Shown in pieces: positions 1,560 to 4,409 of a DNA stretch of 64,000 bases. Under the pieces are notes generated by a model that worked only from the letters and a program-made list of their open reading frames with translations, was not told the origin of the DNA and made no database searches. Source of the DNA: Neoroseomonas oryzicola (GTDB lineage Bacteria > Pseudomonadota > Alphaproteobacteria > Acetobacterales > Acetobacteraceae); assembly GCF_012163135.1 (NCBI RefSeq), contig NZ_JAAVUP010000001.1, positions 186,001 through 250,000 on the forward strand, in the 5' to 3' direction. The translations under genes and the position numbers were made by a program. Numbering within the stretch: the stretch's first letter is position 1; each line of letters opens with the position of its first letter.

Positions 1560-2063
1560 ATGACCGAGACCCCGGCCGCCGACCCCGAGAACACGCTGAT
1601 CCTCGAGCTCGAGCACGGCACCGTCACCATCGCGCTGCGCCCCGACCTGGCGCCGAAGCATGTCGAGCAGATCAAGACGCTCGCCCGGCGCGGCTTCTAC
1701 AACGACGTGCCCTTCCACCGCGTGATCGAGGGCTTCATGGCCCAGGGCGGCGACCCGACCGGCACCGGCCGTGGCGGGTCCGACCTGCCGGACATCGAGG
1801 CCGAGTTCTCGAACCCCGGCACGGCGCGTTTCGTCCGCGGCACCTGCGGCATGGCCCGCACCCAGGACCCGAACAGCGCGAACAGCCAGTTCTTCATCAT
1901 GTTCGGCCCGGCGCCGAGCCTCGATGGCCAGTACACCATCTGGGGCGAGGTCACCTCGGGCATGGATGCCGTGGACAAGATCAAGCGCGGCGCCGGCATG
2001 TCGGGCATGGTGCAGGGCCCGGACAAGATCCGCAGCATGAGGGTGGCGGCGGACGCCGCCTGA
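1560..2063 (+). CDS. Cytoplasmic cyclophilin-type peptidyl-prolyl cis-trans isomerase
   Basis: A 167-aa cyclophilin without a signal peptide, expected to assist protein folding in the cytosol. It shares long identical blocks with the upstream paralogue, such as FHRVIEGFMAQGGDPTGTG and the NSANSQFFIMF region, as well as the C-terminal MDAVDKIKRG. The start ATG follows the stop of the paralogue by 22 bases, so the pair is probably co-transcribed. Keeping one exported and one cytoplasmic cyclophilin side by side is common in alphaproteobacteria. A perfect GC-rich hairpin follows the stop and probably ends the transcript. Confidence 0.94.
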   Translation: MTETPAADPENTLILELEHGTVTIALRPDLAPKHVEQIKTLARRGFYNDVPFHRVIEGFMAQGGDPTGTGRGGSDLPDIEAEFSNPGTARFVRGTCGMARTQDPNSANSQFFIMFGPAPSLDGQYTIWGEVTSGMDAVDKIKRGAGMSGMVQGPDKIRSMRVAADAA

Positions 2064-2070
2064 GGCTATC

Positions 2071-2099
2071 ACCCGGCGCCATCCGACCCGGCGCCGGGT
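2071..2099 (+). terminator. GC-rich hairpin after the cyclophilin pair
   Basis: ACCCGGCGCC at 2071-2080 pairs perfectly with GGCGCCGGGT at 2090-2099, leaving a 9-base loop. There is no T-tract, so termination here is inferred from the position between the cyclophilin stop and the tRNA segment. Confidence 0.5.
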
Positions 2100-2104
2100 C
2101 CGGC

Positions 2105-2142
2105 GTGCCCGTAGCTCAGCCGGTAGAGCACGTGACCTTTAA
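2105..2142 (+). pseudogene. 5' half of an interrupted tRNA-Lys (TTT)
   Basis: The segment starts with acceptor strand GTGCCCG (2105-2111), then a D-arm (GCTC...GAGC), then the 5' anticodon stem CGTGA (2131-2135) and the loop CCTTTAA. After the loop the tRNA pattern stops: no T-arm or acceptor complement follows. The matching 3' half, with acceptor strand CGGGCAC and CCA, is at 3305-3349. The halves join into a standard tRNA-Lys with anticodon TTT. The bases just after the break (GCACG, 2143-2147) still pair with four of five positions of the anticodon stem, a possible attachment-site remnant. As arranged, this gene should not give a tRNA. Confidence 0.8.
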
Positions 2143-2243
2143 GCACGCCGGCCGGGTGACTCTGGGTCTGGAAGGCGCAGAAATCCGCCATAGCTGAGGT
2201 GGCGAGTTTCGGAGTTTCGGCGCGGTTTCGACGCCGCGTCCGC

Positions 2244-2318
2244 GAGCCGGTAGCTCAGTGGTAGAGCATTCGACTTTTAATCGAATGGCCGAGGGTTCGA
2301 ATCCCTCCCGGCTCACCA
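2244..2318 (+). tRNA. tRNA-Lys (anticodon TTT), intact
   Basis: A complete 75-base cloverleaf with encoded CCA. The acceptor stem GAGCCGG pairs with CCGGCTC, the D-arm is GCTC-AGTGGTA-GAGC, and the anticodon stem TTCGA/TCGAA flanks the loop CTTTTAA (anticodon TTT). The T-arm is GAGGG-TTCGAAT-CCCTC, followed by discriminator A and CCA. It lies inside the segment that splits the other tRNA-Lys and differs from it in acceptor and anticodon stems, so it is not a simple copy. It may supply or replace the lost lysine tRNA function. Confidence 0.95.
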
Positions 2319-2367
2319 ATCCGGCCGCATCGCGTCTGTAGCGAAGTCGGCGAGCAAAGCATCGTCA

Positions 2368-3000
2368 TCAATCCTGCCTCCGCGGCGTCAGTCGTGCCGA
2401 AGATATGAAATCCCTTATTGCACGATCAACTCGACTCCAATTTCTCAGGTGAGACCGCGGAAATGTATACTGTATCGATAATTCATGATCCAGCGAATAC
2501 CATGTTCGGCAGTAATCATCTCGTACTCGAGAATTCGTTTCACGGAAATTCGAGCAAGTAAAGACGATTGGAGATTCGAATGCGCTTTTCCGAATCATGG
2601 GATTTCCGACAAAATAGACGAAATTACCCAGGTGTAGGGCCTCGGCTAGATGTGTTTCTGGATTGAATTCACCATTGTATGAATGAAATCGTCGCGAAAC
2701 ATTAGAAAACAGATCTATCTGGCGATCTTGAAGGCTAATTATTATCGAATATCTCGGATCAGATGCTGCTGATCTGGGGATCACAGATAGGAGATCGGGA
2801 TTAATTTCGCCATGGATTGTGAGCATCAGATCGCCCGGTCGGGCGGAGGGAAAAACAATAGAGAAAGATATGGGAAACTGAAATTGATAATTTCCCAACT
2901 GAAATCTGCGGTACTCTTGATTGGAGGACGCAGGGGGTAAAATCGCTGTCATCGATAGAAAAAACAATGCTATTATGCGAGTTAAACTATATATTGTCAT
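2368..3000 (-). CDS. Hypothetical exported protein in the AT-rich insert
   Basis: A 210-residue protein that I do not recognise. The N-terminus has a short positive stretch and a hydrophobic core (IIALFFLSMTAI) ending near PPASS, a convincing Sec signal peptide. The mature part is rich in beta-prone hydrophobic and aromatic residues and contains only two cysteines, C149 and C164, which could form a disulfide in the periplasm. Base composition and codon use are far more AT-rich than the neighbours, suggesting horizontal acquisition. The sensible signal sequence and uninterrupted length argue that it is, or recently was, functional. It lies alone on the minus strand, with a doubtful small frame upstream. 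Confidence 0.55.
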   Translation of the reverse strand: MTIYSLTRIIALFFLSMTAILPPASSNQEYRRFQLGNYQFQFPISFSIVFPSARPGDLMLTIHGEINPDLLSVIPRSAASDPRYSIIISLQDRQIDLFSNVSRRFHSYNGEFNPETHLAEALHLGNFVYFVGNPMIRKSAFESPIVFTCSNFRETNSRVRDDYCRTWYSLDHELSIQYTFPRSHLRNWSRVDRAIRDFISSARLTPRRQD

Positions 3001-3260
3001 GGGCCGTTGCGATCGTCTCTTATGCAGAAAATCGCAGCGATTGTAAATGAAATAGTCTGTCCAAATTTAAAAAAATTAAACGAAAACAAATGACGGCGAC
3101 AATAGAAATATTGGCTGCTTCGGCCTCGAGCCTCAATACGCATCCGAGCCGCCTCCCGCATTGACCCTCTGTGCGTCGACCATAGCAGTCGCGAGAGATA
3201 TCGGAACATCCGGCGCAGCAATGCGGTCAACGCTGGAACGCTCACTGCCTTGCCCTCCAA
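2997..3260 (-). CDS. Doubtful small ORF, 87 aa, in the AT-rich insert
   Basis: This frame overlaps the start of the exported-protein gene by 4 bases, an arrangement that sometimes marks real coupled genes. The translation is Arg-rich at the N-terminus and Phe-rich at the C-terminus, with no family I can name. It crosses from GC-richer into AT-rich DNA, so it may be a chance frame at an old junction. The surrounding stretch 3001-3304 shows no other gene. Confidence 0.2.
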   Translation of the reverse strand: MEGKAVSVPALTALLRRMFRYLSRLLWSTHRGSMREAARMRIEARGRSSQYFYCRRHLFSFNFFKFGQTISFTIAAIFCIRDDRNGP

Positions 3261-3304
3261 AACGAAACCTGCGAGATCAATGCACTAGATGATGCCGCTC
3301 GCGC

Positions 3305-3349
3305 CTTTTAATCATGGGGTCCCGGGTTCGAGTCCCGGCGGGCACACCA
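3305..3349 (+). pseudogene. 3' half of the interrupted tRNA-Lys (TTT)
   Basis: The half starts in the anticodon loop (CTTTTAA, 3305-3311), then 3' anticodon stem TCATG, variable bases GGGTC, the T-arm CCGGG-TTCGAGT-CCCGG, acceptor strand CGGGCAC (3339-3345), discriminator A and CCA. The acceptor strand is the exact complement of GTGCCCG at 2105-2111, and TCATG pairs with CGTGA at 2131-2135 with one G-T pair, so the two pieces belong to one gene. No D-arm or 5' acceptor strand precedes this half, so it is not functional alone. Confidence 0.8.
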
Positions 3350-3377
3350 TGTTCTCCCTGGCGATCCCGGAGATCCG

Positions 3378-4409
3378 ATGACCGCCGCGATCGAATTCGG
3401 CCTCGACACCTTCGGCGACATCACCGCCGGCCCCGACGGGCAGTCGCTCTCCCACGCGCAGGTCATCCGTGACGTCATCGCGGAAGGCGTGCTGGCGGAT
3501 CGCCTCGGCGTGGACTTCTTCGGCGTCGGCGAGCATCACCGCGAGGACTTCGCCGTCTCGGCGCCCGAGGTCGTGCTGGCGGCGATTGCGGGGCAGACCC
3601 AGCGCATCCGGCTGGGCTCCGCCGTCACCGTGCTGAGTTCCGACGACCCGGTGCGCGTCTACCAGCGTTTCGCGACGCTCGATGCCGCGTCGCAGGGGCG
3701 GGCGGAGGTCATCCTCGGCCGCGGGTCATTCACGGAATCCTTCCCGCTCTTCGGCTATCCGCTCGACCAGTACGAGGTGCTGTTCGAGGAGAAGCTTGAC
3801 CTTTTCACGAAGCTGCTGCCGCAGGAGAAGGTGACCTGGTCCGGCACGGTGCGCGCGGGGCTTCGAGACCAGCGTGTCTTCCCCACCGTCGAGAAGCCAC
3901 CGCTGCGGACGTGGATCGGCGTCGGCGGCAGCCCGGAATCGGTGGTGCGGGCGGCGCGGCACGGGCTGCCGATGATGCTCGCGATCATCGGCGGCGATCC
4001 GCGGCGCTTCGTCCCCTATGCCGACTTCTTCCGCCAGGCCTGCGACAGGCTCGGCCAGCCACGGCTGCCGATCGGCGTGCATTCGCCGGGCTATGTCGCC
4101 GGGACCGACGCCGAGGCGCGCGCGGAGTTCTTCCCCGACTACAAGCGCATGCGCGACCGCATCGGCGCCGAGCGCGGCTGGTCGCCGATGAGCGAAACCG
4201 AGTTCGCGCAGGAGGCCGACCGCGGCTCGCTGTACATCGGCTCGCCGGAGACCGTCGCGCGCAAGATCGCGGCGACGGTGCAGGCGCTTGGCGTGCAGCG
4301 CTTCCAGCTGAAATACAGCGCCGGGCCACTCAGCCACGCGAAGTTGATGCGCTGCATCGAGCTCTACGCGACCGAGGTGATCCCGCGCGTCAGGGCCTTG
4401 CTGGGCTGA
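3378..4409 (+). CDS. LLM-class (luciferase-like) flavin-dependent oxidoreductase
   Basis: A 343-residue protein with the bacterial-luciferase TIM-barrel pattern, expected to use FMNH2 or F420-type flavin to oxidise or reduce an unknown substrate. Family marks include the GVGEHHRED segment after strand 2, IRLGSAVTVLSSDDPVRVYQ in the middle, and the GRAEVILGRGSF stretch. The start ATG lies 28 bases after the tRNA 3' half, so its promoter may have been changed by the insertion upstream. It converges on the next gene with only three bases between stops. Substrate cannot be told; monooxygenases of this group often act on alkanes, sulfonates or xenobiotics. Confidence 0.9.
   Translation: MTAAIEFGLDTFGDITAGPDGQSLSHAQVIRDVIAEGVLADRLGVDFFGVGEHHREDFAVSAPEVVLAAIAGQTQRIRLGSAVTVLSSDDPVRVYQRFATLDAASQGRAEVILGRGSFTESFPLFGYPLDQYEVLFEEKLDLFTKLLPQEKVTWSGTVRAGLRDQRVFPTVEKPPLRTWIGVGGSPESVVRAARHGLPMMLAIIGGDPRRFVPYADFFRQACDRLGQPRLPIGVHSPGYVAGTDAEARAEFFPDYKRMRDRIGAERGWSPMSETEFAQEADRGSLYIGSPETVARKIAATVQALGVQRFQLKYSAGPLSHAKLMRCIELYATEVIPRVRALLG

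Follow-up and report, generated by a model that had tools for sequence, protein, structure and literature searches.

Lysogeny that depends on a phage-borne tRNA has been demonstrated experimentally in actinobacteriophages, several of which target tRNA-Lys-TTT (Guerrero-Bustamante and Hatfull, mBio 2024, PMC10865867). Prophages of Sinorhizobium meliloti disrupt tRNA-Leu(UAG) and carry a substitute, and two such alphaproteobacterial cases are described (PMC11476347). A 2025 study of the phiLM21-like prophages of S. meliloti, in the sections used here, did not find tRNA-dependent lysogeny there (PMC12429752). Ordinary integrative elements, for their part, carry a 3' half in attP from which the target gene is rebuilt.

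The locus analyzed here lies in a 64,000-nt stretch of the Neoroseomonas oryzicola genome (hereafter, the window; this genome is denoted G000, and the other G numbers stand for genomes of relatives). It displays four of the features by which tRNA-dependent lysogeny is recognized, namely, a split host tRNA gene that was not rebuilt, a short core, an element tRNA of the same isotype, and no other copy of the disrupted gene among the tRNAs typed. The first three of these, with the core located in the anticodon loop, are shared with the actinobacteriophage systems as that report presents them (PMC10865867). In those systems, however, the prophage is intact and able to leave, whereas the window retains only a tRNA and two broken ends; furthermore, the Fionnbharth tRNA was shown to have its own promoter (PMC10865867), whereas the spare tRNA in the window sits just downstream of the host 5' half. 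The S. meliloti prophages resemble the window in that an alphaproteobacterial host tRNA is broken and the element carries a tRNA, but the isotype is different and the prophages are still present, as far as the relevant part of that report goes (PMC11476347). Ordinary integrative elements in two relatives, G028 and G030, have their crossover in this gene too, in the anticodon loop that is broken in the window, but unlike the window element they restore their target. In G028 (C12:361614-374635, L097), the tRNA is intact and a second copy of the 3' half is accompanied by a Phage_integrase match within about 1 kb; in G030, the same ordinary arrangement is seen with the ends on different contigs (C128:18755-18830 and C25:6314-6362; L161 and L160). 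The locus comprises the following features:

1560..2063, + strand: cyclophilin-type peptidyl-prolyl isomerase gene, the left flank (Pfam PF00160)
2105..2142, + strand: 5' half of the host tRNA-Lys(TTT) gene, one change in 38 positions compared with the intact gene of relatives
2136-2142: left copy of the loop and core, CCTTTAA, the last 7 nt of the 5' half
2143..2243: 101-nt spacer, the left end of the element, 86 of 101 positions identical and of equal length in G021
2244..2318, + strand: complete replacement tRNA-Lys(TTT) with CCA encoded (ARAGORN; Rfam, 81.3 bits)
2319..3259: interior of the insert, mostly of low G+C, delimited by composition and absent from the sister species
2368..3000, - strand: ORF of 210 amino acids in the interior, with no convincing relative
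3260..3304: right end of the element, kept in the sister G021, with 7 substitutions in 43 aligned positions
3305..3349, + strand: 3' half of the host tRNA-Lys(TTT) gene, no changes in 45 positions compared with the intact gene
3305-3311: right copy of the loop and core, CTTTTAA, the start of the 3' half
3378..4409, + strand: luciferase-like monooxygenase gene, the right flank (Pfam PF00296)

The order of the flanking genes is syntenic in several relatives, with a tRNA-Lys called downstream of the cyclophilin gene in all 30 loci fetched and the monooxygenase gene adjoining the 3' half in G021 as well. The intact tRNA-Lys at 2244-2318 is the only tRNA called in the window by ARAGORN and by Rfam at the gathering threshold, below which both host halves score. 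The first-pass annotation placed these halves at 2105-2142 and 3305-3349 and held that they had once formed one tRNA-Lys(TTT) gene; the coordinates are correct, and the claim is borne out. The joined segments 2105-2136 and 3306-3349 make up 76 nt that ARAGORN calls as tRNA-Lys(TTT). In four relatives (G016, G006, G010, and G001), the intact gene found in this same place after the cyclophilin gene has exactly this sequence, which excludes a chance origin of the halves. The loop sequence given for the break, CTTTTAA, holds for the right copy but not for the left one, which now reads CCTTTAA. Apart from this heptamer, of which the left copy has since changed, the two ends of the insert have no sequence in common, and neither continues a tRNA half, so that the target gene was, as claimed, not rebuilt. 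The same junctions are found in the separately assembled sister G021, which argues against an assembly error.

Over 83 positions (both halves, with the loop counted in each), the halves differ from the intact gene at one position in G000 and at 14 in G021, where the 3' half is changed at 10 of its 45 positions and the anticodon is gone. The intact copies in the four relatives are identical to one another despite 10-16% divergence of their cyclophilin genes. Such decay of the halves next to the invariance of the intact copies indicates that the halves have been freed of constraint, which is plain in G021; the single change in the G000 halves, taken alone, would not prove the same for the window species.

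The event is an old one. We built a tree of 29 of the 35 genomes of the genus (G013 was omitted as its locus is cut, and five genomes came without a fetched locus), in which G000 and G021 are sisters (100/100), nested in a clade with G016 and G004 (99/99). A search for an unbroken gene of the GTGCCCG type, proposed in the first-pass annotation, found it intact in 12 of the 16 genomes on the G000 side of the tree and split in G000 and G021. The annotation had also named a split ancestral state as a finding that would speak against its reading; one sister is split, and the next relatives out, G016 and G004, have the gene intact. On these comparisons, the split state is derived, not ancestral, and the insertion is placed in the ancestor of the two sisters, with erosion since. 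G021 has the same split. Its spacer is again 101 nt long, with 15 substitutions, its tRNA-Lys is likewise offset by 139 nt, and both the right end and a heavily decayed 3' half are present; in place of the 210-aa ORF, it has an APH(6)-type gene. This gene (L095:378-1307, - strand) belongs to the aminoglycoside/hydroxyurea kinase family APH(6) (PF04655, E 3e-80). In the remaining two of the 16 genomes, G003 and G014, a tRNA-Lys of the GAGCCGG type stands alone at the cyclophilin-tRNA-Lys locus (L066/L158 and L068/L096, respectively); the GTGCCCG-type gene was not found in either genome, nor did BLAST detect a remnant of it beside their tRNA or on the fetched far-flank stretches. The histories of G003 and G014 may be other than that of G000 and G021.

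The first-pass annotation recognized an intact, different tRNA-Lys(TTT) within the insert, as both ARAGORN and Rfam do at 2244-2318, and suggested that it possibly replaces the lost gene; the tRNA complement agrees with this suggestion. In the G000 draft assembly, 99.6% complete in 52 contigs, there are 45 matches to the Rfam tRNA model, all of which were typed with ARAGORN. Lysine is represented by one Lys-TTT, the tRNA at 2244-2318, and one Lys-CTT. No tRNA-Ile, tRNA-Trp, or tRNA-Ala(TGC) is among the 45, which implies that the draft misses some tRNA regions, so the tRNA at 2244-2318 is the only Lys-TTT seen among 45 matches of an incomplete set. The cell now seems, from its gene content, to live on the tRNA-Lys(TTT) of the intruder, and the spare is presumably expressed and essential.

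As for the source of the spare, a comparison of 40 distinct tRNA-Lys(TTT) sequences puts the tRNA of G003 nearest to it (96%), followed by the spare of G021 (88%) and by the phage tRNAs of L261/L293 (87.5%) and of the Achromobacter phage Mano (86%). Mano is also the top-ranked phage match (87.7% over 97%), and the window spare, the L261/L293 tRNAs, and that of Mano share a D loop shorter by one and the 17-nt arm TTCGACTTTTAATCGAA. Azospirillum plasmid tRNA-Lys genes, however, match the spare about as well as the phage ones (85.5% over all 75 nt), so the spare is not clearly viral. The G000 and G021 spares differ at 9 positions and by one gap, so one or the other has been exchanged since the species split; the G014 tRNA-Lys equals the G021 spare over 73 nt.

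The insert contains little else that can be recognized. The spacer includes a tandem repeat, GAGTTTCG, at 2204-2219, which could possibly represent integrase arm sites. Across 397 genomes of the family, the spacer was found in the two sisters only, with short, weak matches otherwise; the interior has no similar stretch in its own genome or in the fetched relatives, and the ends have no other copies in their own genome. No recognizable phage gene was detected in the insert, and the 210-aa ORF, which is low in GC with a hydrophobic N-terminus, has no match in PHROGs or plasmids. Its best E values are 0.18 in Pfam, 0.0048 in NCBIfam (a family of type IV secretion inhibitors), and 0.028 in PDB (6pdk); the latter two matches are weak and span about 36 C-terminal residues. 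The right end (3260-3304) and its G021 counterpart are readable as the end of a reading frame on the + strand whose stop codon lies within the tRNA loop, and several of the differences between them fall at third codon positions of this putative frame. That no integrase remains, as the first-pass annotation stated, holds: none lies near the insert, and all 10 Phage_integrase matches in the genome lie elsewhere, two on contig C1 about 0.9 Mb or more away and eight on other contigs. Phages of the same layout do have an integrase, and its lack here, together with that of other phage genes, is as expected of a remnant.

This layout, an anticodon-stem-loop-like core followed by a complete tRNA of the same isotype in the same direction, is found beside the integrase in phage Mano (NC_054147). 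As in the window, a mimic of the stem-loop, AACTGA-CTTTTAA-ACAGTT, adjoins a complete tRNA-Lys(TTT), whose 17-nt anticodon arm is identical to that of the window spare; the mimic sits between the integrase gene and the tRNA. Unlike the window, Mano, as read from sequence alone, is a complete phage of another host, with a different acceptor stem and a shorter spacer. From 127 records, we examined 20 phage loci that have related integrases; in seven of them, a complete tRNA lies immediately upstream of the integrase gene: Mano (Lys-TTT) and PPpW-3, Persinger, HeidiAbel_Bas97, PT1, Alux-21, and MQ-4 (all Arg-TCT). In all seven, the 7-nt anticodon loop of the tRNA, sought on the strand of the tRNA, occurs once between the integrase and the tRNA, within an imperfect palindrome. 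The six Arg phages probably belong to a single lineage, which would leave perhaps two independent cases, not seven. In ZX1, a tRNA-Arg is on the other side of the integrase, beyond the reach of the loop test; Mica, KA2-1, Meadow, PG1, and PSTCR3 have, by eye, an ordinary 3' half; and in several other phage loci, nothing was seen in the stretch inspected.

Viral contigs with such integrases number 79, of which seven are too short and 72 were scanned: 11 have an ARAGORN tRNA beside the integrase, 27 have a match resembling a 3' half, and 34 have neither. The loop copy is present in 8 of the 11 tRNA-bearing loci, compared with 0.13 expected from shuffled intervals; three of the eight match Mano, Persinger, and PPpW-3 in length. 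The three loci that lack it are L307, L328, and L329, where ARAGORN reports a complete tRNA-Lys, yet only the 3' half looks genuine; such over-calls can mislead automated tallies of the tRNAs that phages carry at attP. Four pattern scans of viral sequences gave 6, 6, 0, and 2 loci, and the layout was found in 2 of the 12 examined, L261 and L265 (the latter being Mano). Within the bacterial family, a Mano-type integrase (E 1e-60) was detected in 2 of 397 genomes with no tRNA in those loci, and no intact element of the window's kind was found by this route; the Mano integrase served as a stand-in query for the enzyme that would have acted at the locus. The integrase region of HeidiAbel_Bas97 has no near match in E. 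coli genomes by megablast.

We consider it highly probable that what remains here is the worn trace of an integrative element that relied on tRNA-dependent lysogeny and was most likely a temperate phage. Both the phage identity, as opposed to another element with an integrase, and the integrase step at the anticodon loop are what we infer from the layout. The attachment site of the element would have imitated an anticodon stem-loop, with CGCGC from the right end, CTTTTAA, and GCACG from the left end; read together, the ends give CGCGC-CTTTTAA-GCACG, with four of five arm pairs and no tRNA 3' half. A tyrosine integrase would have swapped this site with the anticodon loop of the host tRNA-Lys(TTT) by way of a core, some 7 bp long, that the two have in common. 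An exchange in the loop by an element that carries no 3' half leaves the host gene split and not rebuilt. The complete tRNA-Lys(TTT), about 100 nt inside the left end of the element and in the same direction, would have taken over the AAA codons. The interior, including the integrase, would later have been lost and replaced, differently in the two sister species, while the spare had to stay, since the halves can no longer yield a tRNA. Given that the phage layout puts the spare just downstream of the host promoter and the 5' half after integration, it may borrow the host promoter; that the spare is transcribed from the promoter upstream of the 5' half is our guess. Consensus scans, which are weak evidence and more so in an alphaproteobacterium, revealed no promoter-like sites in the window spacer on the strand of the spare, and none in the intervals of Mano and Bas97, where both strands were scanned.

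Other routes to the same arrangement can be envisaged. An element could have integrated in the ordinary way, with the tRNA rebuilt, and a later deletion could have taken the rebuilt 3' half and joined the 5' half to a segment with another tRNA-Lys. Such elements do occur at this gene in G028 and, divided between two contigs, in G030, but the left break coincides with the very end of the loop, where a random deletion would stop only by luck, and the phage layout yields the same arrangement in one step, so we regard this course of events as improbable. Still less credit can be given to a transposon that hit the anticodon loop and brought a tRNA-Lys by chance: the 7-bp repeat CTTTTAA at both ends would suit a target duplication, but no transposase is recognized in the insert, its ends show no convincing terminal inverted repeats and are not found elsewhere in the genome, and the landing of same-isotype cargo in a loop known as an integrase site would be a coincidence.

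That the halves are still in use, as an intron-containing or trans-spliced tRNA, is the least plausible of these and hardly to be entertained. It would fit the near invariance of the halves in the window species (1/83), and a probable group I intron sits in a tRNA-Lys of a Sphingomonas MAG. However, the G021 3' half has lost the anticodon and has 10 of 45 positions changed, the complete tRNA-Lys(TTT) makes the halves dispensable, and no Rfam intron family matches the region 2060-3380 even at E 10, which speaks against a group I intron in the insert. The integration of an element with its own tRNA-Lys is therefore the reading that we retain.

A genome-wide scan for tRNA-Lys(TTT) 5' halves cut after the loop yielded 52 loci; the scan demands an unchanged loop and is blind to decayed scars such as that in the window. 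Many of the 52 are archaeal and look like intron-bearing tRNAs. The bacterial loci L210 and L253 are complete tRNAs, not halves. A complete tRNA-Lys is found further on in four bacterial loci (L208, L230, L236, and L256), none of which is counted as a second case. In L208 and L236, this later tRNA agrees with the half over its 5' part and has the look of an ordinary copy; the one in L230 departs from the half at two positions of the D loop, and there is an integrase-like stretch nearby. In L256 (a Rickettsiales MAG, JAIRLP010000095; 650-934 on the reverse complement), a complete tRNA-Lys lies 209 nt beyond the 5' half and differs from it in the acceptor stem. L208, L230, and L256, the last being a short contig, yielded no separate 3' half, and the only one in L236 is that of the complete tRNA. 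In the Sphingomonas sp. MAG JAEKMC010000141 (L221:6439-6709), a tRNA-Lys(TTT) is cut after the loop, with a fitting 3' half about 270 nt on; the gap has a group I intron match (27.3 bits, E 5.6e-5) below the Rfam threshold, and this is probably an intron in tRNA-Lys.

Thus, the mechanism is already known, but the decayed stage is apparently new: in the open-licence literature searched, we found no description of the end state in which the prophage is gone and the tRNA of the element is the only copy. A complete tRNA flanked by the two halves of another one of its isotype provides a signature for counting such events across bacteria, and since the same layout exists in phages of Proteobacteria, the idea can be tested directly with isolates such as Escherichia phage HeidiAbel_Bas97. 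The window shows a possible residue of tRNA-dependent lysogeny, in which a host tRNA gene was exchanged for that of a mobile element and the old one is still legible as decaying halves. Single-copy tRNA genes can be replaced along such a route. We suggest, tentatively, that when such a prophage decays, the host would keep the tRNA of the intruder for good, in a one-way ratchet that acts on core translation genes, and that tRNA-Lys(UUU) might have been exchanged more than once in this genus: the common ancestor of G000 and G021 would be one instance, and G003 and G014 perhaps supply others.
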